This document shows positions 5,596 to 54,903 of a stretch of 64,000 nucleotides of DNA, one piece after another (the stretch's first letter is position 1; each line of letters starts with the position of its first letter). Position numbers and translations under genes: made by a program. The notes beneath the pieces are model-generated. The model was given only the letters and a program-made list of their open reading frames with translations. It had not been told where the DNA came from and did not search any database. This DNA comes from Scleroderma bovista. Taxonomy: Eukaryota; Basidiomycota; Agaricomycetes; Boletales; Sclerodermataceae. The stretch covers positions 283,803-347,802 of the forward strand of contig JAYMGJ010000216.1 of NCBI GenBank assembly GCA_037178675.1. Reading direction: 5' to 3'.

Positions 5596-8500
5596 CTATT
5601 TGCTGGATTTGAGTAATTTCTTTGCTGGAGTTTGCCAATCAGATAATGAAATCATGACATTTGAACTGTTTACTCACACATGCGAGAATTCAAGATAATA
5701 CCCATGATTGCCTGCTGTAGTTTGACTTTGTTGTTTTCATGGGCTTGAATAGCCTTCCTCAAAGCCTTGCAGACTGCAGCTTGAGTTCCAGAACTTTGAT
5801 ACTCCTTGACAGCAGATGCAAAAACACCAATTGGATCTTCTTCATTTGACTCCAAATAGAAATATGAGTATTCCAGAATAAGAATACAGGCTGCAGAATG
5901 TTTCAGAGAGATACACAGGAAGGAAGACATCACCTTACCAACACCATGGGCTATCAGTTTATGAACAGGAGAGGCCATGGGACCATCAGACATCAATGGC
6001 AAATTAACATCATCATGGATGGTATATGGTTTCTGATGTTCCATGAAAATGAATGGTTAGATGCACCATGATAAAATTTTCAACCCACAATCTAAGAATT
6101 GTCTGATGTGTTATGTTAGAACTTGTAGGCTCTCATAACATACCAAGTTCTGTAAAAGATGTTACTAAGAGTCCATGAACATTTTGCAGAGATTATTCAC
6201 TTACTTTCTAAGAATTTGGAAATAAATAAAAAATTAAGTAATAGTCAAGAAGATACAAAGTGCCACTAACATCCTGAAGAAAGCATATGTATTAATAAAG
6301 AATGCAGATGGAGCTTTAGCTATACCAACTTACTTGCTATTCAAGTGATATTGAAGTATTGCATGAGAACATGAGAAGAAGTCCATCTCAATATATGGTC
6401 ACTAACCCCCTATAAAGTGAACAAGAAGAAAACAGAGTGAGAAAATTTCAGAGTAGTTGGCATCAAACACTTACATGCTGTTGGGCCATAATTCAAGTAA
6501 AATGAAGATATTGAGTAGAGAAGTTTGGTATGAACCACTCACAGCCTATGAGGTCAACACAATCAATGTAAATAAAAACAGTGAAAAGTGTCCCAGTTAG
6601 ATCTGGTGATGTCACTTACATACTGTCAAAAAAAGTCAGATTGGAAAAGAAGTCAGTGAAATGTGATCTGACTACACCTGTGAACTACTCACATGCTGTT
6701 ATTCCAAGAGTGGAAGTTGATGCAATGAAAAGAGGTCAAACTCCACAGTGTTAAACTACTCACTTGCTGTCAAGCAAATTGGATGAAAATGGGGTGAAGT
6801 CAGTAAGAAAGAGATTCAGGCTCCTTTGGCATGAAGAAACTCACCCACTGGTTGAGACAATAGGATCAGGGTAAAGGTGAAGATAAGCTAGTAGACTGGG
6901 TATGAAATACTAGCTCACCCACTGCCAAGACAATAAGATCCAGATGCTAGTGATGTCCCAGTTTTATCTGGAGTGAAACAGACTCACATACTGTCAAGCA
7001 TATAGAATACCAATGAATGCAGAAACAATAAAAAAGGTTGCAGGCACAGCTGATGTCAACTACTCACAAACTGGGTCAGGGAATTAACAAGAGATTTAGC
7101 TACACTTGGAATGAATTCACTTACAGCCTGTCAAGAACAGAAATGACAATGATGGGAAAAGATCCAGTAACACTTTGCATGAGATCACCCACATACTATC
7201 AAACCCATGGATCAGAGTCAATGAGAAGAAACTTAAATGAAATCACTTACAGACTGTTATAGAACCAGGGTTGGAGTGAGAATACTGAGAAGAGGTGTAG
7301 TTATGAAATCACCCACCCCCTAACAACCCAATACACAGGTAAAATTAGGATAGAGAAAGGAGGCCCAGTTGCACAAAGCCACTCACAGGCTGTCAAGCCA
7401 TTAATTCAGAGGGATGTTTATCTCTAATTCTCAAGAAACTAGTACTCACACGCTACAAAAGCAAACAAGACCAGGCATGAGTGGAGAGAATGAGTAACCT
7501 ACATTTTTGTACATGTCATGAAATGACTCACATGCTAACAACAAGACCAGAATAGCCATGCAGATGGTGGGATACTAAGATTTAGTTACACCTGGCATCA
7601 TGATACCACTTACACGCTGGGAATGCAGCAAAGTCAGATGAGATATTCAGGGGCATCTAGGATGAAATTGCTCACATTCTGTTGAGCCAATAGGACCAGT
7701 GTGTGAATCAAAACAATGAAAAGGAACATGGCATAAATCACTCACATACTATCAGCCAAAAGGATCAAGTAGATAAAGTACAATGAGAAGTTATTCAATT
7801 GAACTTAGTACCAAATCACTCACTCCCTATCATGATGCCAATATCACCAGAGCAGAAAGTGAGAAAATACTCTCAGAAATAGAGAATCACTCACTTGCTA
7901 TCAAGTATATAGGATCAGAATTCTGTGAGAAACTACATATAACATCAAATCACTCACATGCTGTTGAGTGAATACAAAATTAATACAGGAGTAGAAATTT
8001 ATTCACATGCATGAGATTATTCCACTTCTGGTCAGTTATTTTGCAAATGAAAGAGAACATTAAATCTGACCTGCAAGAATGGCATCCACCAAAATATCTC
8101 ATTCTCTAGTCCTTGTTTGTCATAATCTTTTTCTTTGTGCAGTAATGGTATCAGTTCTCTGAAAAAAATGTTAACAAGATGATCTTGTATAAAGATTAAC
8201 TTACTTTTCAACAGCATACTCAATGTTGAGTTCAAGATTGGTCTGTTGGGTTGATATAAGAAGCCTCTGCAGTTCTGTATCATCAAGAGCACTTGTTGTC
8301 CACCTTATGAGCAGGTCACAATTTGCACCATCTTTGTTCATATCTGTATTGAGATCAAGTTAATTGGCACATGAAAAAGATACAAGATGCTTACCAGCCA
8401 GTGATATGCAACCCTTGGGAGGGTAATTGAACTCATGCAGCTGCTCCATAATTCTTTCTTTATGATGGGTTAACATCTCTTTTGCAAGGTCTCCTGCCTT

Positions 8501-21612: not shown

Positions 21613-22553
21613 AGTGATACCAGATCCGTTTGGGTACGTGACATGAAATAGAGCATCTTTTCCGTCTCATGGCAGCATCCTAGCTTGAACATTATAGGTA
21701 TAAATTGATACATCCTCAAGTCAATTTAGTATAAGAGTATGTACCAGTAACTTACCAATTTCATGTGCTGGACAGTTGTAATCCTCGAAACCCTCATAAT
21801 ATTTGCAGGGCTATTGGACCGCCCATCAACGACTTGTATGGATCCCTCACAAGGCTTCCACGAACGCACACCATAGTCGTAGGGTAGGGCATAATTGTAT
21901 TCAATGTCTGGGTGTCCATTGAACTGTCAGCTCGTTTGTTGACAACGCTATATAGTTCTTTTCCCGAGATCGATTCTACTTAGGTATGTCTCTATCAGGC
22001 TGAATTACTTGCATCTGGTAGCACTTATTAGGTTGGATTCACGTCAGCCTTATCAATTGCTATGTTATGTAAATCCGGCTGGAGAGCGATGGCCAGTTGT
22101 CAGCTTATGGCACAGCAGCCCGGCTTGGTATTCAGCGGATAGTACTACTAGTAGCAGCCCTGTAATAGTGCTTGCATCTTGCGAGCCATACTTATAAGCG
22201 GTTCACCTACAAAGCCATTGCTTCCCAGAATTTCCTCAAGAAATCAAAGAATCGGAGCATCGGGTTTCCAAGCTAGCCGGTTATCAATTCTCGGGACCAG
22301 TGTGTGGAACTGCGCGACCATCGGCTCCACTATTTCAACCTTACCGTGCACCACGACGATTTCCAGTGCTTCTACTCATCGTCAGCCCAGTATCACCTCG
22401 CATGGCTGCTCAATTCGCTACCAAGTTGATGTCTTCGTTGCCTTTCAGGAACAAGCCGTCGGATCAAGTTGACTTAAGTGCATTATCACCTGCTTTTAAG
22501 GTGCAAACTGTATTGACCATCGGCGATTCCCTTCAGATGCGGCTGATTTCCGT
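21613..22553. other. Intergenic, glycogen synthase 3' side and GTPase B 5' region
   Basis: The first part should be the GSY 3' region. From about 22390 the DNA resembles the 5' region of GTPase A and encodes a MAAQFATKLMSSLPFRNK-like peptide, probably an unplaced first exon. No other gene is seen. Confidence 0.5.
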
Positions 22554-25500
22554 ATGGATCCTGCCAAAGTCAAAGAGCACTTTGACCGCATTGGCTGTTT
22601 CCGGGTTCTCATCATGGGTAGATCAAATGCAGGGAAAACAACCATCCTTCAGAGGGTTTGCAACACCACGGAGCTTCCTGAGGTCTTCAATGCTAGGGAA
22701 GAAAAGGTACTATCCCATACGATTATAAGGCTACTCATCGAATTACTCATCGATCGCAACGACCAGATTGATGCCGTGGTTGTCCAGGGATCCATTGAAG
22801 TGAGCCAGAAATGCCACCACATGACATTAACTGTACTGATCATTCTCAGGGGGGATGCCACAACATTGAGGATGAACTGGTCTTTCAGAGCAACCGAGGC
22901 TTCGTATTTCACGATTCGAGGGGATTCCAAGCTGGCTCCGAGAGTGAAATGGAAACAGTAAGAAACTTTGTGGCTGATCGAGCAGCAACAATACAGTTGA
23001 AAAAAAGGATCCATGCTGTCTGGTGAGATTATTCAATCAATCTATGAGTGTTTTCTGATGACTGATCATGACACTCATTCCAGGTTTTGCATCCCAATGA
23101 CTGACTATGAAAGGGCCATTATGGCTGCAGAAGAGAAGTTCTTTAATGAATGTAATACAGGCACTGGTAAGTTTTGACATTGCAATCTGTTTCAATACAA
23201 AGCCTTAGACAAGATGTAGTGCCTGTGATTGTGGTATTGACAAAGACAGATTCTTTGGTGTCCCCTGCAATTGGGAGACTAATTGATGAAGGTTTGACAA
23301 TGAAAGAAGCAAAGTTGAAGGCTGGGGACCTGGCAAAAGAGATGCTAAACTATCATCAGGAAAGAATTATGAAAGAGTTGAACAAGTTCAACTACCCTCC
23401 AAAAGGCTGCCTGTCACTGGCCAGTGAGCATGTCTTGTGTATCATTGACTATCAGGCAACTTTGTTTCATTGCAGATATGAACCAGGATGGTGCAGATTG
23501 CAATTCACTCCTAAGGTGTACAACAAGTGCCTTGAATGGTCGAGAACTGCAGAAGCTTCTTATATCAACCCAACAGACCAACCTTATACTCAATATTGAA
23601 TGTGTTGTTGAAAAGTAAGATGGTTGCTATGCAACACTATCTTCAATGATGTGTATGTCTTATAGGGAATTGATGCGATTATTACACAAGGAAATAAATT
23701 ATGACAAAAAAGGACTAGAGAATGAGATATTTTGGTGGATGCCATGCTTGCAGGTCAGATTCAATACTCTCTTTCATTTGTAGATAGTAACTGACAATTC
23801 CCACTAACTGGATTCATTTTATATTCACTCAACAGCATGTGAGTGATTTTATGCTATGGCTTTCTCTCAAGTTGATCCCTTTTATGATTTGACAGCAAGT
23901 GAGTGGCTCTATGTTTATAATAATTTCTTCTAACTTTCTACTCTGTTCCTATTGGCATGACAGGGAGTAAGTGATAGTACTCAATGCCACTAGGTCACTT
24001 ATTATTATCCTTATTTTTGGCATGATAGTATGTGAGTGATTTTATACATATCATGCACAAGTTATGTTCCCTCTCACTGTCTTTATTTCCACACTGGTCC
24101 TGTTCACTCAACAGAATGTGAGTGATTCCATGCTGGGTGCACCCAGACCTCTCATTCACTCTTCTTGACTTTTTAGTGTGTAAGTGGTTTATGCAGGTTT
24201 GACTAAATCTCATCCTACCATCCTCATGATTGTTCTTGGTTTAAAAGCATGTGAGTGGTTTTATGCAGGCACAGATATGTTACTCACTCTCTCCACTCCT
24301 GCCTGGTCTCCCTTGCCTTCACAGCGTGTGAGTAGTTTCTTGAGAAGTGGAGCTGGGGCTTGTCTGACTACAACTCTACTTCATGACAGCCTGTGAGCTG
24401 TTCCATACCTGATTATATTAATTATTATTCTTATTTCATCAAATTATTAGGGAGTAGGTGCTTTTATGTCCACTAGTTTCTACCTTTTCTCAGTATTTCC
24501 ACCCCAACTCTTGCCCTGCAATAGTCTGTGAGTGATTTAAATTTTGGGCACAGATGAGGCTATTTCATTTACTTATAAATGGGTTTGACAGTATGTGGGT
24601 AATCTCATACCAGATGTCAGCATCATCTCATTATTTCAATCCCTTCTCTGGTCATGACATCCTGACAGTCTGTAAGTGATTTCACTCCATTTGTAGCTAA
24701 ATTTCATGGACTTCATAGTTTGTGAGTGATTGATGCTAGATGTACCTGCATCTCTTTCCACTATCTCCACACTGATTTCCATTCTATGTGTTTGACAGTA
24801 TGTGAGTGATTTTATACCCAATACAAAAGGGTTTCCCTTTGCATTAGTATATCTACTCTGATCCTGTTGCTTTGATACTAGTGGGTAAGTTTTATATCAA
24901 ATGTATCTGGGCACTCATTGGACTTGTTACCTTGATAGTGGGTGAGTGATTGCATGTGAGATGAGCCTGAATGTCTGCTTAGTGGATCTACCCCCATTCT
25001 GACCAATTTACTCAACAGAAAGTGAGTAGCCTTCCACTGGGAACCCTTCTGATGACACTCAATTCACTTTGGAATGATAGCATGTGGGTGATTTCACACA
25101 GTGCACTTGAATATTCTGACTATCTTCTCTGTCAATACATGTTCATTTGATAGTATGTAAGTGACATCCAACTAGAATTAGCTTTGTACCACCATATTGA
25201 CTTCATTTTTATTTGACCCAATAGTCTGTGAGTGATTCACACCAACTGCAGTGAAATGCTTTTATTCTCACTTTGTCCTGTTGGCTTAATAGCATGTAAG
25301 TTTTTGATGCCAGGTTCTCTAAATATTTATTGACATTCCTTCCAATCTGATCTCATTTACCTTATAGGGGGTTAGTGACTTCATATCTCCATGAACCATG
25401 TTTTTTACTGCCACAATCCATCACTTTCATAGCAAGTATGTTGATTATAGCTATACAGTTTGTATTAGTTCACAACTCACATAATATTTTAGGATGTCAG

Positions 25501-26179
25501 TGATACTCTTGTGACACCTGAACTATCAGTGCATCACTTATCTGTGTCTCAAAAATCCAAACTTTTAGAAAGTTGGTCATTAAGCTCATTGAAATGCCCA
25601 CGAATTTCATATCATTACTCTTATAGAACCTGGTATGGGACAGATGCCTACATTAAGAAATACATAATGCATCTGGAATTTATTCCTTCTTAGATGGTGA
25701 GGATATGATATTTGTATTCAACTAATGATTCTCATGAAACAACAGAAACCATTTATCATTGTTGATGATGTTCATTTGCCATGGATGTCTGATAGTTCCA
25801 TGGTTTCTCCTATTCATAAATTGATAGCCCATGGCATTGGTAAGGTGATATGTCCCTCCTCTTAGTATTTCCCTAAAAATTATACAGGCTGTATTCTTAT
25901 CCTGGAATATTCCTATTTCTATTTACAGTCAGGTGAACAAGATTCAATCCATGTCTTTGCATCTGCTGTCAAGCAGTATCAAAGTTCTGGCACCCAAGCT
26001 GCCATTTGCAAGGCTTTGAAGAAGGCTATTCAAGTCCATGGGGATAACAAAGATAAACTGCAGCAGGCTATAATTAATATCATCTTGGATTCACGCATGT
26101 GTGAGTAGATAACCTAAATACTATCATTGGCTTACTGGTACTTTCAGCAAAGAAACTCCTCAGACCAATGAGCAAGTAG
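22554..26179 (+). CDS. P-loop GTPase paralogue B with 28-microexon array
   Basis: Paralogue of the gene at 5596-9245, on the opposite strand. Motifs: G1 GRSNAGKT, G3 DSRGFQ, G4 VVLTKTD. Exons: 22554-22706, 22767-22799, 22850-23022, 23084-23166, 23220-23423, 23476-23614, 23666-23753, then 28 microexons (see 23754-25745), then 25746-25839, 25888-26100, 26148-26179. Total 433 codons, no internal stop. The intron before each exon pairs with that in paralogue A, and exon lengths are identical (153, 33, 173, 83, 204, 139, 88, 87 in the array, 94, 213) up to the last. The final splice (26101-26147) bypasses a nearby TAG and gives SKKLLRPMSK, matching A. Function beyond GTP binding is unknown. An additional N-terminal exon upstream of 22554 is likely. 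Confidence 0.85.
23754..25745 (+). other. Array B: 28 consecutive microexons (27 x 3 nt, 1 x 6 nt) separated by 47-83 nt introns
   Basis: Repeated AG-NNN-GT(G/A)AGT pattern between the exon ending CAG (23753) and the exon starting AAA (25746). Microexon start positions: 23836, 23896, 23964, 24029, 24115, 24177, 24248, 24325, 24390, 24451, 24525, 24592, 24669, 24719, 24799, 24882, 24939, 25019, 25081, 25154, 25225, 25293, 25368, 25433, 25493, 25569, 25627 (6 nt), 25694. Exons 1-14 encode HQGYNCHRPGSYSF; exons 15-28 encode YWWKHYSHGQDKNLM. Compared with array A, 80 of 87 exon bases and 24 of 29 residues agree at aligned positions, and two of the seven base changes are synonymous. Donors are mostly GTGAGT/GTAAGT with a few GTCAGT, GTTAGT, GTATGT, GTTGGT. 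Every unit ends in AG. All introns are phase 0. Confidence 0.9.
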
Positions 26180-29595: not shown

Positions 29596-30403
29596 ATGGC
29601 TAATCAACAGTCCGCATTTTTGGTAATGAACACTATCACATCAAGACTACACAACATTAGGTAATCAGTACTACACATTTTTGGTAGTACACTACAACAA
29701 CACCACACAATATTGGTTGATCAATAGTCCACATTTTTGGTAATCAGCACTACCACCTCAAGAGTACCCAACATTAGGTAATCAATACTACACATTTTTG
29801 GTAGTACACTACAACAACAACACTACGCAATATTGGCTAATCAATAGTCTGCATTTTTGATAATCAGCACTACTACACCAACAGTACACAACATTAGGTA
29901 ATCCAAACTACACATTTTTGGTAATCAACACTACACAATATTGGCTAATCAATAGTCCACATTTTTGATAATCAACACTACCACACCAACATTACACAAC
30001 ATTAGGTCATCCAAACTACACATTTTTGGTAGTACACTACAATAACTAATCAATACTAGTCCGCATTTTTGATAATCAACACTACTACACCAACAGTACA
30101 CAACATTAGATGATCAATACTACACATTTTTGGTAGTACACTACTATCATTGCATGCCTAATGCATAATTTTGACTATTCATTGAATAACTCCACAACAC
30201 AACAACTTTAAGACCCTGGCTTTCAGCCAGAGGTGCCCAAAGGTCCTATCTACAACTCTGTACAACTCTGGTGCATGAATTTGCAGTGTCATTCAGCAGC
30301 AGCGTGTGAACAAAAAAAGTGCAAAATCAACATGTAATGCACAATTTTGTCACAGCATGTCACACAAGGCATGACAGGCAAGATTAAAGGATAGATGGGC
30401 AGA

Positions 30404-31032: not shown

Positions 31033-32202
31033 GCAGAGACTAAACTGACATCTAGAGAGTGACTTCCTCTTTTAGTATTGTTGTCACTCCCTCCCAAAGA
31101 TTCTTGAATAACAAGTAAATTTCCGGCCTTTGTATAATAAGTAAAATGTGCAAATCATGGAGGATAGTGTGTTGTAGGTCACCTGAAATTTCTATGGAGA
31201 ATGGGTGGAAGGATCTCTTTAGATCTATGTATCTAGGTCATTTTTGGGTGATAGTTGGACAACTTTTGGTGGCAGGAATGCTACACAATACTGTTCCTTT
31301 TCAAACAAGTATCCAGTCAATGAAATTATGATGTATGTAGTCTAGTTTACTTATTCTGGTGTCAAGAAAATGGGGAGGTGGAGTGCTACCTATCATTATG
31401 CATGGGATGTCCATTATGCACAAGTGGTCACATGATAGTACAACAACTAATCAATAGTCCACATTTTTGATAATCAGTACTATCACACCAACAGTACACA
31501 ACATTAGGTAATCCAAACTACACAATATTGGCTAATCAATGGTCTGCATTTTTAATAATCAACACTACCACACCAACAGTACACAACATTAGGTAATCCA
31601 AGCTACACATGTTTGGTAATCAACACTACACAACATTGGTTGATCAATAGTTCGCATTTTTGGTAATCAACACTACCACATCAATAGTACACAACATTAG
31701 GTAATCAATACTACACATTTCTGGTAGTACACTACAACAACAACACTACATAACATTGGCTAATCAATAGTCCGCATTTTTGGTAATCAGCACTACCACA
31801 CCAACAGTACACAACATTAGGTAATCCAAGCTACACATTTTTGGTAATCAACACTACAACAACAACATTGGCTAATCAATAGTTCGCATTTTTGGTAATC
31901 AGCACTATCACACCAACAGTGCACAACATTAGGTAATCCAAGCTACACATTTTTGGTAATCAACACTACAACAACAACACTACACAACATTGGTTAATCA
32001 ATAGTTTGCATTTTTGATAATCAACACTACCACACCAACAGTACACAATATCAGGTAATCAATACTATACATTTCTGGTAGTACACTACAACAACAACAC
32101 TACACAACATTGGCTAATCAATAGTCCGCATTTTTGGTAATCAGCACTACCACACCAATAGTACACAACATTAGATAATCCAAGCTACACATCTTTGGTA
32201 AT

Positions 32203-33848
32203 TGTCATATCCATACTTTTCCCAGTTGCAACTCTGGTCTAACCCTGGCCCACCTGACCTCTCCTTAGGCATAGATGCAACTCCGGATCTAGTCCGGCCA
32301 TCTCCAGCCCCATAGCTGCACTCCAGCTCAACTCTGGTCACTATGTCCATCTCCACCTCAGGACTAACCCCTGTCTTCCTCTAGACAGATCCACGGTCTA
32401 ACTCCTCCATGTCAGACCTGTACCTACCATTAGTTGCTACTCCGGTTTCAGTCCAGCCACTCCCTTTGTCTGGTCTGTGATCTAGCCCAACTCCGGCTGG
32501 TACATCCAACTCCGGCTCAGGTCTGCTCCTGTTCTGCTCCACTCCCTCTGTCAGGTCCACCAATGGCCTTGGACATGTCCAACTCTGGACCTTCCTCTGG
32601 CTACTCTGCCCTTCCTCCAGCTGTACACTCCCTCCGCTTGTACACTCCCTCCGCTCTTGCACTTCCTCTGCTCATGCACTCCCTCCGCTCGTGCACTTCC
32701 TCCGGTCCCACTTCCTCCAGTCCTGGACATTGCTCCAGACTTAACATTAGTTAAGTCCACCTCTGACCCTTACCTGTCCTCTTCCGACCTAGTTCCCTTT
32801 ATTTCACTGTCCCTGCTTTTTCTCTGTTGTCCCTGTATCTCTAGTTCCCTGTGTCTGCTCCTGCTCCAGATTATTTTCCTGCCCCTGGTTTATTTTCCTG
32901 TCCACTTCTGCTCTGTCCCTTGTCTCGACATTAGGGTGTTTACTTGTCACCGTATATACTCATCCTAGTTCTCATTACTATATAAACTACTATACTCCAG
33001 CCTAGTAGTTTCCTTAGATCAAATCTCGACTAAGATACTCCCCACTCTGTACTACCCACTATGCTCTCCTAATCCATCTGTTCACCTGAACTCTGGCCAA
33101 CTCCGGCCTCCGGCCTCCGTCCTATCTCGTCCCCTTGGTCCTATGTCTGATCCTAGCAAGTCTCCTACTTGCATGAGGGCAAAAGCCACCTCTGTCCCAG
33201 ACTCGATGCTAGACCTCTCAGGACTTATCCCACCTCTGGGATGTCCTTCGCTCCGGACAAGCTGCACTCAACTCTGGACCACTTTCCTGTGGTCTGGACT
33301 TACTTTGCAAAAACCCAGACTTACTCCCTGTGCTTCTCTAGTGCCTGGACTTCGTTCATTTAACCCAGACTTGACCCTCCGCACTAACTAGCACCTACTA
33401 GTGTCTGGACTTACCTCCTCATTAGTTCCCTGCACCTCTGGACTGTAACGGACCATGACTTTTTATCTTATCTAATCTGTGATTAGATAACATCCTAACC
33501 TGGTTACAACCTGTAAGCAGCCTGTATACAACCTGGAACGCTATAGGTAGCCTAGTCCCTTGCCTCATGTATGTCTTCTGGTAGCCATACCTACACCCTT
33601 GATGTCATACCACTACCTACATACATGCTGTAGTCTCATGTATACCTCATGCCTGGTGCATGCTCTGTAGTATATGTACTGGTGAATCCAGCACCCTGGA
33701 GCTCTCCATTTGAGCTCTCTTTGGGTTTATGCTCTAAGACTCGACTTCTATCCCTCCTCAGAGCTTGTGTGATAGTTCCTTGGGCTTGTCCCTTAGGGTT
33801 GTCTCATGGACCTCCTAGTAAGATCATTGAGGAGAACCAGTCTTGACA
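32203..33848 (-). mobile_element. Solo LTR (family as 39312-40553), inverted, carrying a nested solo LTR
   Basis: Reverse orientation of the element at 39312-40553: ends are TGTCATATCC and GTCTTGACA. GTAAT is duplicated at 32198-32202 and 33849-33853. The nested element at 33444-33806 accounts for the extra length. It sits in the satellite array. Confidence 0.82.
33444..33806 (+). mobile_element. Solo LTR, second family (TGTAACGG...GTCTCA), TSD TGGAC
   Basis: A 363-bp element nested in the LTR at 32203-33848. TGGAC flanks it on both sides (33439-33443, 33807-33811). It is related to the solo LTR at 59612-59992: they share ATCTTATCTAATCTGTGATT and CTCTCCATTTGAGCTCTCTT. The structure fits a copia-like LTR but no internal region is available to confirm that. 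Confidence 0.82.
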
Positions 33849-37412: not shown

Positions 37413-40400
37413 ATGGCCCCCCACCGCTGCAACTATTGCTTGAAACCTATAGCCACAGAGGCTGGGATCAAGCGGCATATAGCGCAGTCGCCTGCATGTC
37501 ATGATCAATGGACGAAGCTCCTTGAACGGATGGAATTGACCGTATTGAAGGATGAAGATGATCAGCTTCCCGAGCACATGAACGACGACGCACCAGGCAA
37601 TCCATACGAGTTGATGAATGAATTTGATGCTATGGATGGTCCAGACAATGCTCTCGATGTTCCAGATGGGCACCTGGTTCACCTGTCTCATGTTGATGTT
37701 GATCCTGGGCCACCTGATCTCAGTGAGCCGCCATCCAAGCGTGCGCGAATGGAGGAGGACAATGGAGACCTACCCCATTGGCCAGCCTCTGGATGCTTCA
37801 CCGAACAATACTCAGGAGTCGCCGCTACAATACTGGGGAAGGAGAAGATGGTCTTCGAGTCTATGGAAGCCGCAGACCTTGAAAAGGGCAGGAGCGAATG
37901 GGCACCTTTCTGCGATGAAGACGAATGGGAACTTGCACAATATTTGATGAAAAACCTTGGGAAAACAAAGATCGATGAGCTTCTGAAGCTATTGCACGTA
38001 AGCGAATAAAGATTGACTCACTGACTCAACACTGAATGCAACCAACTTGTAGATGCGGAAGAGTGGCCTTTCATTCGATAACGCCCACTCCTTCCTCAAG
38101 CGTGTCAATTCTTTATATACCAGCCCAGCTTGGACATGTGAGATGATTGATGTTGAGGGAGACTTGGTGGGTGAGGATGGGGTCGTGAAGCGGGAGACGG
38201 TAGAACTATGGCGAAGGGATCCGGTTGAATGCGTGGAGGAGCTTATTGGGAACCCTGCCTTGCAAGATATGATGGTGTATGTCCCAGAGCGTGCATATAC
38301 AGATGCGAAGGGAGAGAGTCGGATCTATGATGAGATTATGGACCAGTGACTGGTGGTGGGAGACCCAAGTAAGTACTTACCATCGATTCCGAAAGATGTG
38401 AATGCGACTAACGTGATGGTGATGTACAGGGAAAGTTGCCAGAGGGTGCAGTGGTGGCGCCGGTGATCTTGTCGTCTGATAAGACAGCGCTGTCTGTGTT
38501 CAGTGGGGACAAAAAGGCATGGCCCGTATACCTAACCATTGGGAATATCTCGAAGGACGTCAGAAGACAAGTGTCAGCACACACAACGATTCTTATTGGC
38601 TACTTACCTGTGTCCAAACTGGAGTGTTTCCATAAGAAAACATGCTCGGTCGCAGGATATCGTCTATTCCATTATGCGATGTCTTTGCTGTTGCATCCGC
38701 TGGTCGATGCTGGTCAGAAAGGAAGGGCTATGGTGTGCGCTGACGGATTTGTGCAACGAATTCATCTGATTCTGGCTGCATATGTTGCCAACTTTCCTGA
38801 GCAGTGTCTTGTGGGCTGCAACAAGGAGAGCCGTTGCCCTCGCTGTCTTGTGAAAACAAAAAATCGTGGAGACCTTGATGAATGCTCATGCCGCAGTACA
38901 GTTGACACGTTGAAGACCTTGAGGCAGATGCGAAGAAACAAACGATCGAGTAAGTTTGATAAAGAAGGTTTGCACGAAGTCTTCGAACCCTTTTGGAAGG
39001 ACCTTCCCTTCACCGACATCTTCGCCTGCATCACTCCCGATATCCTCCATCAGCTCCATAAGGGTATATTCCACGACCATCTCATGCAGTGGTGCCTAAG
39101 TGTGCTCGGCGAAAAGGAGATGGATACCCGCTTTCAGGCCGTAACTCAATACCCTGGCCTTCGCCACTTCAAGAAAGGGATTTCCGCAGTCTCCCAATGG
39201 ACAGGCAGAGAGCACAAGGAGATGGAGAGGGTTTTTATAGGTCTCCTGTCCGGTGCGGCCGAAGAAACTGTCCTCATAATGGCCCACTCACGTCTTGATT
39301 TCATCTACTACTGTCAAGACCGGTTCTCCTCAACGATCTTACTAGGAGGTCCAGAGGTGCAGGGAACTAATGAGGAGGTAAGTCCAGACACTAGTAGGTG
39401 CTAGTTAGTGCGGAGAGTCAAGTCCGGGTCAAACAAACGAAGTCCGGGCACTAGAGAAGCACAGGGAGTAAGTCCAGGTTTTTGCGGAGTAAGTCCGGAC
39501 CGCGGGAAAGTGGTCCGGAGTTGAGCGCAGCTTGTCCGGAGCGAAGGACATCCCAGAGGTGGGATAAGTCCTGAGAGGTCTAGCGTCGAGTCTGGGACAG
39601 AGGTGGCTTTTGCCCTCGTGCAAGTAGGAGACTTGCTAGGATCGGACATAGGACCAAGGGGACGAGATAGGACGGAGGCCGGAGTTGGCCGGAGTTCAGG
39701 AGTTCAGATGAACAGATGGATTTAGGAGAGCATGGTGGGTAGTACAGAGTGGGGAGTATCTTAGTCGAGATTTGATCTAAGGACTACTAGGCCGGAGTAC
39801 GGTAGTTTATATAGTAATGAAACTAAGGTGAGTATATACGGTGACAAGTAAACACCTTAATGTCGAGACAAGGGATGGAGCAAAAGCAGACAGGAAAATA
39901 AACCAGGTACAAGAAAATAAAGCAGGGACAGGAAAATAAACCGGAGCGGAAGCAGACACGGGGAACTAGAGTTACAGGGACGACGGAGGAAAAGCAGGGA
40001 CAAGGGAACTAGGTCGGAAGAGGACAGGTAAGGGTCAGAGGTGGACTTAACTAATGTTAAGTCCGGACCGATGTCCAGGACCGGAGGAAGTGGGACCGGA
40101 GGAAGTGCACGAGCGGAGGGAGTGCACAGGTGGAGGAAGGGCGGAGTAGCCGGAGGAAGGTCCGGAGTTGGACATGGAAATGTCCTAAGCCTTTGGTGGA
40201 CCTGACAGAGGAAGTGGAGCAGGAGCAGGAGCAGAACTGAGCCGGAGTTGGATGTACCAGCCGGAGTTGGGCTACGTCGCAGACAAGGCTAAGGGAGTGG
40301 CCGGACTGAAACCGGAGTAGCGACTAGTGGTAGGTACAGGTCCAACATGGAGGAGTTAGACCGCGGATCTGTTTGTAGGAAGACAGGGGTTAGTCCTGAG

Positions 40401-40798
40401 GCAGAGATGGACGTAGTGACCGGAGTTGAGCTGGAGTGCAGCTATAGGGCTGGAAATGGCCGGACTAGATCTGGAGTTGCATCTATGCCTAAGGAGAGGT
40501 CAGGCGGGCCATGGTTAGACCGGAGTTGCGACTGGAAAAGTATGGATATGACAACTACGCACAGTTCCAGCAACACACAGACAAGACGCTCACAGCTATG
40601 CAGGACAGCCTTTGCCTCTTCCACACACATAAAGACATCCTCGTGGAGCTCGGAATACACGAACATTTCAGCGTTCCCAAGATTCACTCCCTTGTCCACT
40701 ACGTCTCTTCCATCCGAGCCCTTGGCAGTGCTGATGGATACAACTCAGAATACCCTGAACGGTTACACATCGACTATGCTAAGGACACCTACCGCTGT
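37413..40798 (+). pseudogene. Plavaka-type transposase, disrupted
   Basis: N terminus is a C2H2 zinc finger (HRCNYCLKPIATEAGIKRHI), then an acidic linker; exon 2 starts at 38053 (MRKSGLSFDNAHSFLKRVN). Core motifs of Plavaka transposases follow: VVAPVILSSDKTALSVFSGD, GCNKESRCPRCLV, DITPDILHQLHKG-type segment as ITPDILHQLHKGIFHDHL. Two lesions are visible. Near 38342 the usual TxDWWWETQ segment is out of frame, consistent with a 2-nt loss. At 39311 the frame (LDFIYY) is interrupted by a solo LTR and resumes at 40559 (AQFQQHTDKTLTAMQD to HIDYAKDTYR). It ends at 40795 against a gypsy LTR; the remaining C terminus is not in the window. Plavaka belongs to the CMC DNA-transposon group. Confidence 0.82.
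39312..40553 (+). mobile_element. Solo LTR inserted in the Plavaka transposase, TSD ACTAC
   Basis: A 1242-bp element starts TGTCAAGACCGG and ends GGATATGACA. ACTAC is duplicated at 39307-39311 and 40554-40558. Its inverted relative is at 32203-33848. Excision in silico of element plus one ACTAC rejoins the transposase frame (LDFIYY to AQFQQHTD). Confidence 0.88.
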
Positions 40799-41573
40799 GA
40801 GTCAAAGTGTGGATTTGGGTCGGAGTAATAACCCAAACACAACACCAACAAAGGACTACGAAAAAGTGCGAGTGGTGGTTTACCTCCGCGGTGTCCAGAG
40901 AGGATGTGCTGAGGAGGGGGGAAGGGGATCTACACCAACAGGGTGATGCAGATGGTGATGCAGGATACTCCTGGGGTACAGGAGTAATAGAAGACGAAGG
41001 GGATAGGGGTCTGGACTCTTCCTAAAGCCTAGGAAGTGTCAAAGGGGGGATTGGGTAGACTGAGACTGAAACAGCGATACTACACCTAGAGATTGGTGCA
41101 GCAAAGGGGCAGGGATGCCTCTGATGTCCAGAGGCAAGGAAGATTGACTGGTATGAAGCCTAGACTCCGCTTGAGCCTAGTATAAAGAATAGATCTTGAA
41201 TAACTTGGATAAACTTGACAATATTGAGCCTTTAGACCTTCACTGAAGCCTACAAGGACTCAAAGACTGAAGGGATACTGATTGAGAGAGTCTGAGAGAG
41301 GGATAATTTCGTGCAATTGGGTCTTTTCACTGGGCTGAGCCCAGGGGTTTAAATACATGGGGGGGACACAGCATTAAAGTACAAAAAGAGAAGGGAGTAA
41401 GCAGAATTTGTCAAGGATTGGTAAGGGATTGGTAAGAGCTTTGTAAGGGGTTTGTAAGCGATCAGTAAGCAAGGGATAAGCAGGAATGAGTAAGCATAGG
41501 AAGCATGAATAAGCTGCTGAGTAAAGGAATGAGTAAGCTGCATGACAAGATTGATTGGTAAGGGAGTGAGTCA
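40796..41573 (-). repeat. Gypsy 1 left (3') LTR
   Basis: A 778-bp LTR, nearly identical to 53623-54400. It abuts the Plavaka transposase at 40795. The adjoining 41574-42070 is internal sequence, also shared with 54401-54900. Confidence 0.75.
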
Positions 41574-42207
41574 TCAGCTGAGTAATATACCAAAAATGCG
41601 AAAGGGATAGAGTAATACTGATGACAAGAGAGCATCAGTAAGCAAGGGATGAGTCACTGCACAGCAGAAGGAGTCATTGATGCACAGCCTAAGAAGTTTG
41701 ATGAGGGGCTGTGTACCATCAGGAATTTGATGGGACAACAATGGGGAAGATCTGAGATAAACAGGGGGATTGATCCGAGACAAAACAGCCACAAGAAGGG
41801 TACCAGGGGTCCAGAGGTCTTTTGGGGGGTCAGCATACACTAAGGTATAGTGCATGTGTTCTAGCGCCGCTGAAGCACAACCATGGGCTCCCTTGACGAG
41901 CTCTCTTCTGGGAAAGAATGAGAGAGGGTTCTTCTTCCTAATAGCACTATAAAGTGGGGGAATAACTGTCATGGTGCTGGGGGACGTCGTCTGAAAGTAG
42001 GGAAGCAGATAGAGTATTGAATTCGACGCATCCAGGGAAGTGAGACGAATGACAGAGGAAGATGGACATGGCAAGTATCTGGGAGGAAGGGACCATAGGC
42101 TGAGGGCTCATGGGACACAGAGACGACCAGAGAAGACTTCTCAAGCTTGACAATAGACCTAAGATGACCAAAGTACGTCCTTGACGCAGGACTGACGAGG
42201 AGAACGC

Positions 42208-50446: not shown

Positions 50447-51124
50447 TGTGAGTCAAAGTGTGGATTTGGGTTGGAGTAATAACCCAAACACAACACCAAC
50501 AAAGGACTACGAAAAAGTGTGAGTGGTGGTTTACCTCCACAGTGTCCAGAGAGGATGTGCTGAGGAGGGGGGAAGGAGATCTACACCAACAGGGTGATGC
50601 AGACGATGGTGCAGGATACTCCTGGGGTACAGGAGCAATAGATGATGAAGGGGATAGGGGTCTGGACTCTTCCTAAAGCCTAGGAAGTGTCAAAGGGGGG
50701 ATTGGGTTGACTGAGACTGAAACAGTGATACTACACCTAGAGATTGGTGCAGCAAAGGGGCAGAGATGCCTCTGATGTCCAGAGGCGAGGAAGATTGACT
50801 GGTATGAAGCCTACAAGGACTCAAAGACTAAAGGGATACTGACTGAGAGAGTCTGAGAGAGGGATAATTTCGTGCAATTGGGTCTTTTTCCACTGGGCTG
50901 AGCCCAGGGGTTTAAATACATGGGGGGGCACAGCATTAAAGTACAAAAAGAGAAGGGAGTAAGCAGAATTTGTCAAGGATTGGTAAGAGCTTTGTAAGGG
51001 GTTTGTAAGCAATCAGTAAGCAAGGGATAAGCAGGAATGAGTAAGCATAGGGAGCATGAATAAGCTGCTGAGTAAAGGAATGAGTAAGCTGCATGACAAG
51101 ATTGATTGGTAAGGGAGTGAGTCA
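50447..51124 (-). repeat. Gypsy 1 right (5') LTR
   Basis: A 678-bp LTR with the same ends as 40796-41573 but lacking about 100 bp around the TAGACTCCGCTTGAGCC block. The primer-binding site is on its left. Its right edge adjoins gypsy 2. Confidence 0.75.
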
Positions 51125-53622
51125 GGTCTTGGACCGCCGACTCGGGGAAATCATAGTGGCCATCGACCGGAACACAAGAGAGCTGGCGAAGCTCGGTCGA
51201 AAGGTGGAAGGGGTCGCATGGGAGACGAAGAGGGTGGCCGACACGAAGGATCCGAAGGGCAAGGGCAAGGCGATGCCCGAGGAGAGCGAAGAGCGGGAGG
51301 AGTCGGACAAGATGGACGGGGGATAATTGGGTAGGGACCGAGATTCTTCTTGGAGAGTTTCTTTGATGGTCGGGTAGACCTAAAGTACTTGGCTTTGACA
51401 AATACTTGATCACCAACTTTGAAATCGGGTGCGGGTGATCTTCTGGTGTCAGCAGGGCCTTGGTACCTTTTCTGGGCAGCAGCCATTTCTTCACATAGGT
51501 ACTCATGCAGTGACTCTAAGTCAACTGTGTATTCCCTTGCCCGAGCTGATGAGAGATCGTGCTCGGGGTGCACAGCGAGGTTTGGGTGGTATCCTTTGTT
51601 CGCGAAGAACAGTGATATGCCAGTCGTAGCGCTAGGGGCATTGTTGTATGTGAACTTGGCGAGAGGTAGTAAGTCTGACCAATTGTCCTGCTGATAATTG
51701 CAGTATATCCTGATGTATTGCTCGAGTGTTTGATTAGCTTGCTCGGTCTGTCCGTCACCTTCTGGGTGATAGTCCGAAGTGAAATGTAATTTCATATCTA
51801 AGGCCTTACCAAGTGATCGGAAGAAATGGGAGACGAACTCTGAGCCTCAGTCAGATGTTACGTGCATGGGGATGCCGTGCTTAGCGAAGACGTGGAGTAG
51901 GAAGAGCTGTGCGAGCTCAGGGGAAGTTATTGTGTCGTGAGTCGGGATGAATATGGCTTGCTTTGATAGTCGGTCTATGACTACCAGTATGGCTGTGAAG
52001 CCAGATGAGGATGGGAGTTGCTCGATGAAATCCATCAAGATGGAATTCCAAGGTCAGTCGGGGACCGGTAATTGCTTGAGCATCCCATAGGGTCGGTGAC
52101 GTGGCGTCTTAGCTCGGGCACAGGCCGTGCAGGACTTGATGTAGTCCTTCACGTAGGTACGAATGCCTGGCCATGTGTATTCACGATGAATAAGCTCTAG
52201 AGTGCGGTTCTGACCGAAGTGTCCTGATAGGGGATGGTCATGCTTGTATCTGAGGACACGAAGACGTAGGTCATTGGCCTCAGGGACATACATGCGGCCA
52301 TCGAGACGTAGGTAACCAGTCTCATCGGTTGACCATCGGAGATTAGATGTGTCCGAGAGGTGGACTTTAGCGATGGGATTGGTCAGGAGATTAGCTAGGA
52401 TATCGGCGTGAAGACACTCAACATCCATGAGTGCACTTGCTCTGAGTACTGGAGCATGTAGGTATGTTGCGCGGAGGGAATCGGTGAGCTGTTCAGCCGT
52501 GAACACTGGTTGGAGGTTCTGTGGGTTGACTCGGGCAAAGCCCCTATCCCCCTCTTTGGGGTAGACGTCCCAGCGTCTAGTCAAGGTGTCGGGCTTTGCA
52601 CCAAGTTTACCAGGTTGGAAACAAATGATCAGGTTGAAAGATGAGAGATATTCTGACCATCAGGCTTGCCGACAGGTGAGAACCTTAGAGGTGGAGAAAT
52701 ACTCCAAGTTTTTGTGGTCGGTCATGACGTCAATCGGGAAGGCAGGGCCCTCCAGATAATGACGCCAGGTCTTGAAGGCCTTGAAGATAGCGAGGAGCTC
52801 CTTGTCGTGGGTATCATAATTTAGCTCGGGCGCGGTCAGAGTGCGAGAGTAAAACACAATTGGTTGTATCTCGTCATCTGAACCTGTGATGGATAGGATA
52901 CTGGTGATTGCGTAGTCCGAAGCATCGGTCTCGATGGTTAGTTGGGCGCCTGGTTGGAAGTGGGTGAGGATGGGAGCTGTGGTGAAGGCCTTCTTGAGTT
53001 GGTTGAATGACCATCGGCAGCCATCAGAGAAATCCCAGGGGGCATCTTTCCGTGTCAACCGAGTTAATGGAACCACTATATCAGAGTAATTGAAGATGAA
53101 TTGATGGTAAAAGTTTGCGAAGCCGAGGAAGGACTGAATGTCCTTCACCTTGCAGGGTTCGGGCCCATCACAGATTGTCTTGACTTTGTCTTGCGACATT
53201 GTCAAACCGTCGGGGGAGAGGAAGTACCCAAGGTACTCCACCGAGTCCGAATGTAACTCACACTTTTTGGGTTTGGCATAAAGCTTGTGCTGGCAGAGTC
53301 GCTGAAGCACTTCCCAAACATGTTTAGTATGGTCCTCCATGTTGTCCAAGTAGACTAAGATATCATTGAGGTAGACTATGACGCAGACATCGAGCATGTC
53401 CGTGAAGACCGAGTTGACAAATCGCTGAAAGGCTGCAGGGGCATTGGTGAGACTGAAGGGCATCACCTTCCACTCATACGAGCCATAGTGAGTCCTGAAG
53501 GCAGTTTTCCACTTATCGCCTTCAGCAATGCGAACCAGATGGTAAGCATGTCGAAGATCAATTTTAGTGTAGACCTTTGCCTGACTTGGGGAGTCGAGTA
53601 GGTCGGAGATGAGAGGTAGCGG
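51125..53622 (-). mobile_element. Ty3/gypsy retrotransposon 2, pol fragment with stops
   Basis: Truncated element read right to left: RT (AKVYTKIDLRHAYHLVRIAE, MPFSLTNAPAAFQRFVN, VYLNDILVY in place of the usual YxDD), RNase H (TIETDASDYAITSIL), integrase HHCC zinc finger (H..H in GHFGQNRTLELIHREYTWPG, C..C in SCTACARAK) and core ([34 protein letters not shown]). It is interrupted by at least three TGA codons at sites normally Arg: after TCRQA (52659), after PVPD (52053) and after VTSD (51846). The RT start is cut by the LTR at 53623, and the 3' end by gypsy 1. A different family from gypsy 1. Confidence 0.82.
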
Positions 53623-54900
53623 TGTGAGTCAAAGTGTGGATTTGGGTCGGAGTAATAACCCAAACACAACACCAACAAAGGACTACAAATATATGCGAGT
53701 GGTGGTTTACCTCCGTGGTGTCCAGAGAGGATGTGCTGAGGAGGGGGGAAGGGGATCTACACCAACAGGGTGATGCAGACGATGATGCAGGATACTCCTG
53801 GGGTACAGGAGCAATAGATGATGAAGGGGTCAGGGGTCTGGACTCTTCCTAAAGCCTAGGAAGTGTCAAAGGGGGGATTGGGCTGACAGAGACTGAAGTA
53901 GCGATACTACACCTAGAGGTTGGTGCAGCAAAGGGGCAGGGATGCCTCTGATGTCCAGAGGCAAGGAAGATTGACTGGTATGAAGCCTATACTCCGCTTG
54001 AGCCTAGTATAAAGAATAGATCTTGAATAACTTGGATAAACTTGACAATATTGAGCCTTTAGACCTTCACTGAAGCCTACAAGGACTCAAAGACTGAAGG
54101 GATACTGATTGAGAGAGTCTGAGAGAGGGATAATTTCGTGCAATTGGGTCTTTTCACTGGGCTGAGCCCAGGGGTTTAAATACATGGGGGGGACACAGCA
54201 TTAAAGTACAAAAAGAGAAGGGAGTAAGCAGAATTTGTCAAGGATTGGTAAGGGATTGGTAAGAGCTTTGTAAGGGGTTTGTAAGCAATCAGTAAGCAAG
54301 GGATAAGCAGGAATGAGTAAGCATAGGAAGCATGAATAAGCTGCTGAGTAAAGGAATGAGTAAGCTGCATGACAAGATTGATTGGTAAGGGAGTGAGTCA
54401 TCAGCTGAGTAATATACCAAAAATGCGAAAGGGATAGAGTAATACTGATGACAAGAGAGCATCAGTAAGCAAGGGATGAGTCACTGCACAGCAGAAGGAG
54501 TCATTGATGCACAGCCTAAGAAGTTTGATGAGGGGCTGTGTACCATCAGGAATTTGATGGGACAACAATGGGGAAGATCTGAGATTAATAGGGGGATTGA
54601 TCCGAGACAAAACAGCCACAAGAAGGGTACCAGGGGTCCAGAGGTCTTTTTGGGGGGTCAGCATACACTAAGGTATAGTGCATGTGTTCTAGCGCCACTG
54701 AAGCACAACCATGGGCTCCCTTGACAAGCTCTCTTCTGGGAAAGAATGAGAGAGGGTTCTTCTTCCTAATAGCACTATAAAGTGGGGGCATAACTGTCAT
54801 GGTGCTGGGGGACATCATCTGAAAGTAGGGAAGTGGATAGAGTATTGAATTTGACGCATCCAGGGAAGCGAGACGAACAACAGAGGAAGATGGACATGGC
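53623..54900 (-). mobile_element. Second copy of gypsy 1 LTR plus 500 bp internal sequence
   Basis: LTR 53623-54400 is nearly identical to 40796-41573, and the internal flank 54401-54900 matches 41574-42070. It is inserted in gypsy 2 RT on the left and joins the FunK1 gene on the right, so the other end of this element is missing. No matching target-site duplication. Confidence 0.75.
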
Positions 54901-54903
54901 AAG

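Follow-up and report, generated by a model that had tools for sequence, protein, structure and literature searches.

A predicted GTPase gene of the fungus Scleroderma bovista (GTPase B, or gene B) very probably contains a run of 28 exons, each holding one or two codons, that are predicted to be joined intron by intron into 29 residues that likely form an exposed loop. The gene lies in a stretch of 64,000 nucleotides (nt) of contig JAYMGJ010000216.1 (positions 283,803 to 347,802 of the forward strand). This stretch was analyzed as a whole and is referred to here as the window. A preliminary description of this DNA had placed 28 such exons back to back between two ordinary exons, and this arrangement (array B) was reproduced when the sequence was re-read, parsed, and rebuilt into a gene (Table 1). 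The sizes given at that time (3 nt for 27 of the exons and 6 nt for the remaining one, 25627-25632) were borne out, as was the account of the introns: all 29 are GT-AG introns of 47-83 nt in phase 0, and none of the 29 codons that they separate is a stop. With all exons joined, the gene begins with the ATG at 22554, ends with a stop codon at 26179, and measures 1299 nt, or 433 codons of which only the last is a stop, such that the earlier figure of 433 open codons is correct if the stop codon is counted. The array contributes the predicted peptide HQGYNCHRPGSYSFYWWKHYSHGQDK-NL-M. The claim that the splice context reads AG-NNN-GTRAGT throughout must be narrowed: the spacing of 3 nt (6 nt once) holds, but the donor is GTRAGT at only 18 of the 29 introns, the remaining 11 having GTGGGT, GTCAGA, GTTAGT, GTATGG, and others.

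Two other parses of the array were rejected. Retention of any one of the 29 introns results in a frameshift or a stop, and the region therefore cannot be read continuously through its introns. An extra leading microexon (ATA at 23784) was dropped since it would need an intron of 30 nt and has no counterpart in the 28-unit chain of a paralogous gene in the window (gene A). Upstream of the ATG of gene B, an N-terminal leader exon (22402-22500) is predicted and likely, as such an exon is present in several homologs.

Table 1. Positions of the exons and microexon arrays of GTPase genes B and A in the window.
Feature	Position	Strand	Remark
GTPase B, 5' ordinary exons	22554-22706, 22767-22799, 22850-23022, 23084-23166, 23220-23423, 23476-23614, 23666-23753	+	291 codons
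Array B	23754..25745	+	29 introns and 28 microexons; from sequence parse and rebuilt gene
Array B, starts of 3-nt exons, units 1-13	23836, 23896, 23964, 24029, 24115, 24177, 24248, 24325, 24390, 24451, 24525, 24592, 24669	+	
Array B, starts of 3-nt exons, units 14-26	24719, 24799, 24882, 24939, 25019, 25081, 25154, 25225, 25293, 25368, 25433, 25493, 25569	+	
Array B, last two units	25627-25632; 25694	+	6 nt (AACCTG); 3 nt
GTPase B, 3' exons after array	25746-25839, 25888-26100, 26148-26179	+	ends with stop
GTPase A, 5' ordinary exons	9245-9093, 9036-9004, 8953-8781, 8728-8646, 8598-8395, 8343-8205, 8158-8071	-	
Array A	6033..8070	-	28 microexons, starts 7960 down to 6091 (6-nt unit at 6149); one-to-one with array B
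GTPase A, 3' exons after array	6032-5939, 5890-5678, 5624-5596	-	ends with stop

The spacing of the splice sites departs sharply from chance. When the pattern AG-N(k)-GTRRGT was counted on the gene strand of the array region for k from 0 to 12, all 21 sites found had k = 3. Zero-nucleotide ratchet (recursive) splicing was rejected on the same grounds, as spacing 0 yielded no GTRRGT donor compared to 21 at spacing 3. Stwintrons were rejected because every one of the 29 introns is bounded by a GT and an AG of its own and is set apart from its neighbors by 3 or 6 nt. A chaining procedure, with splice-site weights trained on arrays A and B of the window, returned 29 units from the real array B region (including the discarded ATA at 23784), as opposed to at most two units in 60 tile-strands of the remaining window and at most two in 300 Markov resamples of the region. 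Across 30 related loci, chains of 8-21 units were recovered on the sense strand and of 0-1 on the antisense strand, where the scores of the three loci that hold arrays A and B are not independent because the weights come from those arrays.

The window also encodes a second array of this kind in gene A (7960-6091, minus strand), which the preliminary description did not include. The model of gene A runs from 9245 to 5596 on the minus strand and comprises 432 codons including the stop, and its array is predicted to encode HQGYNRHRPGSYAFYWWQHYAHGQDK-NL-I. Arrays A and B each have 28 units in the same order, with the 6-nt exon as unit 27 in both. Identity among the exonic bases is 80 of 87, with five non-synonymous and two synonymous changes, corresponding to a non-synonymous divergence (dN) of 0.073 and a synonymous divergence (dS) of 0.143, both from few sites. 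For the ordinary exons, identity is 82.8%; dN and dS are 0.104 and 0.70 upstream of the array and 0.136 and 0.449 downstream of it. Intron cores show an identity of 0.59 per alignment column between corresponding introns and 0.49 between non-corresponding introns, values that place the introns close to saturation. Conservation of the three-base exons is therefore no lower than that of the surrounding gene, a pattern that would be difficult to account for if they were not translated.

To place the two arrays in the context of the genome, the 51.8-Mb assembly (850 contigs) was searched. The pattern YAG-NNN-GTGAGTGATTT matched at 995 places and its reversed control at none, while the same splice context at spacings of 2, 4, and 6 nt matched 7, 6, and 2 times (reversed controls 1, 0, and 0). 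Among the codons of these 995 matches there were no TAA or TAG, two TGA, and four NNC. The places listed individually (about 100 of the 995, on C60, C63, C101, and C111) are on contigs that also carry this GTPase family. A search with the post-array exons gave 43 matching rows, four in the window genes and 39 elsewhere. Thirty of the 43 were examined, three of which belong to the window genes; all chain at least eight units, and all 27 outside of the window carry arrays. The longest chain, at one sister locus, has 66 units. Many chains end in Q-D-x, in several cases followed by a 6-nt exon coding for x-L, and other chains stop earlier.

Stop codons are strongly avoided in these arrays. A set of 723 units was assembled from 31 loci outside of the window pair, namely 12 arrays fetched by place and 19 loci matching the post-array exons; loci L043, L044, L047, L056, L057, L058, L059, L060, L062, L065, and L068 were skipped as repeats of genes already counted, and L001-L008, L013-L042, and L081-L083 were left out of the counts. 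The set contains two TGA and no TAA or TAG, compared to 81.6 stops expected from column shuffling (minimum of 64 in 2000 shuffles), although the units are not independent because near-identical loci stay in the set. The proposal that the units are coding residues gains weight from conservation with paralog A, from the near absence of stops genome-wide, and from a transcript-like contig described below, and is to be regarded as a prediction. A non-coding minisatellite was rejected based on stop avoidance and on codon conservation between A and B, and the same two observations led us to reject a single large intron as the only product.

Codon usage within the arrays is markedly restricted. The third base is C in none of the 723 units and CAA outnumbers CAG by 136 to 5. 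By contrast, 81 of the 393 codons in gene B's ordinary exons end in C, and CAA:CAG there is 6:13. The units use about one codon per amino acid, with the exception of Ala, Leu, Arg, and Ser, which use two or more. We infer that the splice sites and the final base of the exon would jointly limit the codons that an array can hold; NAG, for example, may be disfavored because it would offer a second acceptor.

Introns and codons have followed different evolutionary paths in the sister arrays. Twelve of these (L009, L010, L011, L012, and L073-L080) comprise units of 81 nt, each a 78-nt intron plus a codon, with mostly homogenized introns and differing codons, and divergence was compared in 12 arrays using units of exactly 81 nt only. 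Nine of the 12 have an intron difference of less than 0.1 per site and a codon difference of 0.50-0.68. The 27-unit array at 86-90 kb of C127 differs by 0.001 per intron site and 0.668 per codon site; of its 325 unit pairs with identical introns, 288 have different codons. Its partner array on C298 shows a similar pattern (0.007 for introns and 0.684 for codons). The separation is weaker in the arrays of C63, C111, and C181, where intron sites differ by 0.18-0.25 and codon sites by just 2.6 to 3.8 times as much (for C111, 0.249 and 0.648). Three pairs of contigs, either alleles or recent duplicates, have allele-like flanks (identities of 99.3 and 98.7% for C554/C708, 98.3 and 99.4% for C101/C181, and 97.7 and 96.0% for C127/C298), and their codon strings are largely different; in C101 and C181, however, the final ten chained units ahead of the array end are the same (KRECLSKQDA). 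In C708, codon strings are repeated within one array. Such a contrast between introns and codons is beyond what point mutation at an even rate would produce. This suggests either selection that diversifies codons combined with recombination that homogenizes introns, or changes aimed at the codons.

A separate comparison of C127 and C298 concerns their spacing. At C127:107-130 kb and C298:42-46 kb the flanks are 99.5-100% identical, and about 23 kb and about 3.3 kb, respectively, separate the pre-array and post-array exons. This difference in spacing may come from an inserted segment, from the two genes being distinct, or from the assembly.

A hint that such units are joined in RNA comes from P0018, a protein of 453 residues encoded on a contig of 2346 nt from a related fungus, the source of which (‘lgn’) we take to be an assembly of sequencing reads. 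In P0018 the GTPase part is joined to 78 array-like residues, after which the protein reads VSDFMAGPAGC, the translated start of an intron in the C60 sister array. At 81 nt per unit, 78 units would occupy more than 6 kb of genomic DNA, and the contig is therefore best read as a spliced transcript with one intron retained. The array part of P0018, used alone as a protein query, matched only itself, and a query comprising the array and C-terminus of the C60 sister protein had no match at E <= 0.01 among 342 candidates. Peptides at the array position of the Pisolithus-like proteins P0045, P0048, and P0100 are not taken as evidence here.

Several observations weigh against the interpretation that array B is spliced into a translated, variable segment. 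The frame of gene B is also open when the entire array is omitted, and a shorter isoform is possible for this reason. Codons are conserved between genes A and B, such that hypervariability is absent from the window pair itself. The TGA units fall at three loci (C534 and C694 among the fetched loci, C534 and C271 in the genome pattern). Exons of 2 or 4 nt, present at L077, L076, L079, and L011, number six compared to 440 of 3 nt in the same context across the fetched loci. P0018 possibly represents a processed copy, with contig size the sole pointer to its RNA origin, and its best exon rows are 79-87% identical to this genome, so that it derives from another genome or from an unassembled gene. 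Lastly, existing annotation gives no support: 62 of 120 listed homologs lack the motif at the junction that precedes the array, and none of the named Scleroderma records among the 120 covers more than 68% of the query. In L077, the locus on C298, one 2-nt and one 4-nt unit are 11 units apart in an otherwise regular 81-nt register; these odd-sized units and the TGA units are skipped units, broken copies, or assembly errors. In 20 of the 120 listed homologs, a V-S/G-x string directly follows the junction, in many as if translation had been read into the array intron, though this motif is not a strict one, and several of the 20 seem to continue in some other way.

How the array is used is the point on which a competing explanation has the most force. 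It is quite possible, though somewhat less likely than not, that the array is a combinatorial cassette for alternative splicing in which the subset of codons varies by transcript and the 29-residue form is only one product. The uniform phase of the units, the open frame of the gene without its array, and the single array intron retained in P0018 are consistent with this, as is the alternative splicing of 3-bp exons in Tuber as far as it is described in papers citing that work (PMC4986451, PMC9815663, and others). In addition, some loci have 2-nt and 4-nt exons, which would do no harm only where they are left out of the transcript. Codon conservation between A and B and the 78 consecutive array-like residues of P0018 nevertheless fit regular inclusion of most units.

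A second alternative concerns origin. Rather than by duplication of units, the arrays could have arisen by serial insertion of one mobile, introner-like intron after each codon of an older, continuous exon. Near-identical introns flanking different codons in several arrays (0.001 versus 0.668 in C127) are what this scenario would leave behind. It is unlikely, given that the strict 81-nt period, the exact phase 0, the codon repeats in C708, and the differing peptides of allele-like pairs are better explained by unequal crossing-over of units, and that no array-free relative with a continuous exon was present among the sequences examined.

The possibility that the whole stretch is a single intron of 1992 nt, in which the AG-NNN-GT repeats are untranslated relics or a minisatellite, is very improbable. 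Skipping the array keeps the frame, and most of the listed homolog models end before or soon after the junction or omit the array. Set against these points are stop avoidance, exact 3-nt spacing, codons kept despite near-saturated introns, a codon choice apparently shaped by splice sites, and the transcript-like P0018. That genes A and B are decaying copies with a leftover, functionless array is barely credible: the introns of A and B do vary in length, have lost the 81-nt period, and are close to saturation, but both genes are open over 432-433 codons, dN is well below dS in the ordinary exons, and all 28 units are kept.

Splicing of array B into 29 residues would most readily proceed by intron definition, with each short intron of about 50-80 nt recognized by itself. 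Neighboring introns would then be removed stepwise, each removal lengthening the exon beside the next splice site, since U1 and U2AF cannot both occupy a 3-nt exon. In the sister genes, recombination may keep introns alike while selection, or a process aimed at codons, keeps codons different. The array would thereby constitute a hypervariable segment, plausibly for non-self recognition. Because every unit in both A and B has phase 0, skipping any one of them keeps the frame, and alternative splicing of the 3-nt and 6-nt units could add variety. A more far-reaching proposal, which we consider neither probable nor improbable, is that the arrays are a codon-level generator of diversity, in which homogenized introns carry codons as interchangeable cassettes for single amino acids, with splice-site rules limiting the choice to about one codon for each. 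A single hypervariable recognition peptide would then be put together by the spliceosome from as many as dozens of successive single codons.

The gene that hosts array B encodes a protein with a match to Pfam MMR_HSR1 (23.7 bits compared to a cut-off of 21.9, residues 17-149). A 425-residue model, seven residues short, served as the query for the Pfam scan, the listing of homologs, and the search for contigs with this GTPase family. MMR_HSR1 ranked first of the 10 families listed at E <= 1, among which there was no NACHT domain and no ankyrin family. Such GTPases, of the TRAFAC type, are defined by a P-loop motif GxxxxGK[ST] and a motif of the type [NT]KxD. Gene B carries the P-loop GRSNAGKTT and TKTD, and the G, G, K, and T of the P-loop are invariant in 34 aligned relatives. 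The top match in Foldseek was a bacterial dynamin-like protein with a low TM-score of 0.26.

Other repeats were observed in the window. Direct repeats of 1.3 kb with 97% identity are present at 40790-42075 and 53617-54903, with shorter related copies at 50447-51124. The arms of an inverted repeat (32198-33443 and 39349-40558), about 89% identical and 6 kb apart, may represent the two termini of a mobile element. Two blocks, at 29597-30144 and 31447-32202, consist of tandem repeats of about 117-120 nt.

Truffles are ascomycetes and the lineage of Scleroderma is basidiomycete. The preliminary description held that no gene with tens of adjacent one-codon exons was known. This does not stand, as the nank (NACHT-ankyrin) superfamily of Tuber melanosporum is credited with 3-bp mini-exons that number in the tens or dozens and undergo alternative splicing (Iotti et al., 2012, Fungal Biol 116:261, as cited in PMC4986451, PMC9815663, PMC3689799, PMC10197012), and arrays of codon-sized exons are, on the word of these citing papers, already known in kind. 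As far as those papers describe them, the truffle genes resemble the genes reported here in having dozens of codon-sized exons, in belonging to a fungal multigene family of nucleotide-binding proteins, and in being proposed as a source of diversity in a variable region; they differ in that they encode NLR-type proteins, whereas here the proteins are MMR_HSR1-type GTPases with no NACHT or ankyrin match. The homogenized introns beside differing codons, the absence of C from the third position of the codons used, and the QD-x that recurs where arrays end are features read here from the sequence of the present genes, the truffle genes being represented by what the citing papers relate. In the literature searched, to which most subscription journals do not belong, there was no report of codon-exon arrays in GTPases or in basidiomycetes, or of homogenized introns with diversified codons.

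Exceedingly short exons are also known singly. Stepwise removal of flanking introns was proposed for a single-nucleotide exon of Arabidopsis APC11 (excerpts of PMC4674806), and a single-nucleotide exon is described for Fusarium CYP621A (excerpts of PMC12940212). According to these excerpts, both exons are spliced despite being far too short for exon definition, as in the arrays, but both are isolated. The steric argument for stepwise removal made above agrees with that made for APC11 in the same excerpts. Fungal stwintrons, as characterized in part of PMC9024468, similarly involve neighboring introns that must be removed consecutively; there, an internal intron splits a splice element of the outer intron, whereas in the arrays every intron is complete from GT to AG and a codon separates it from the next. 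Fungal introner-like elements, as outlined in part of PMC4457414, are likewise similar introns at many places of one genome, but among the places listed here the like introns are in tandem in one gene family with one codon between them. A further introner paper (PMC9860276) contains no occurrence of basidiomycetes, Boletales, or microexons.

These findings bear on gene annotation, splicing, and the evolution of variable proteins. With 62 of the 120 listed homologs lacking even the preceding junction, gene catalogs of this lineage are suggested to miss the array region. If the arrays are spliced as predicted, the spliceosome handles dozens of consecutive one-codon exons, far outside of ordinary exon definition, and the arrays would provide a natural system in which to test the sequence in which introns are removed. 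In the sister arrays, introns and codons have evolved separately within the same 81 bases, in a manner that recalls the diversification of immune receptors, and the contrast in C127 calls for strong diversifying selection or a codon-aimed process. The occurrence of this trait in both an NLR family of truffles and GTPases from a different phylum would point to convergence toward a single unusual solution.

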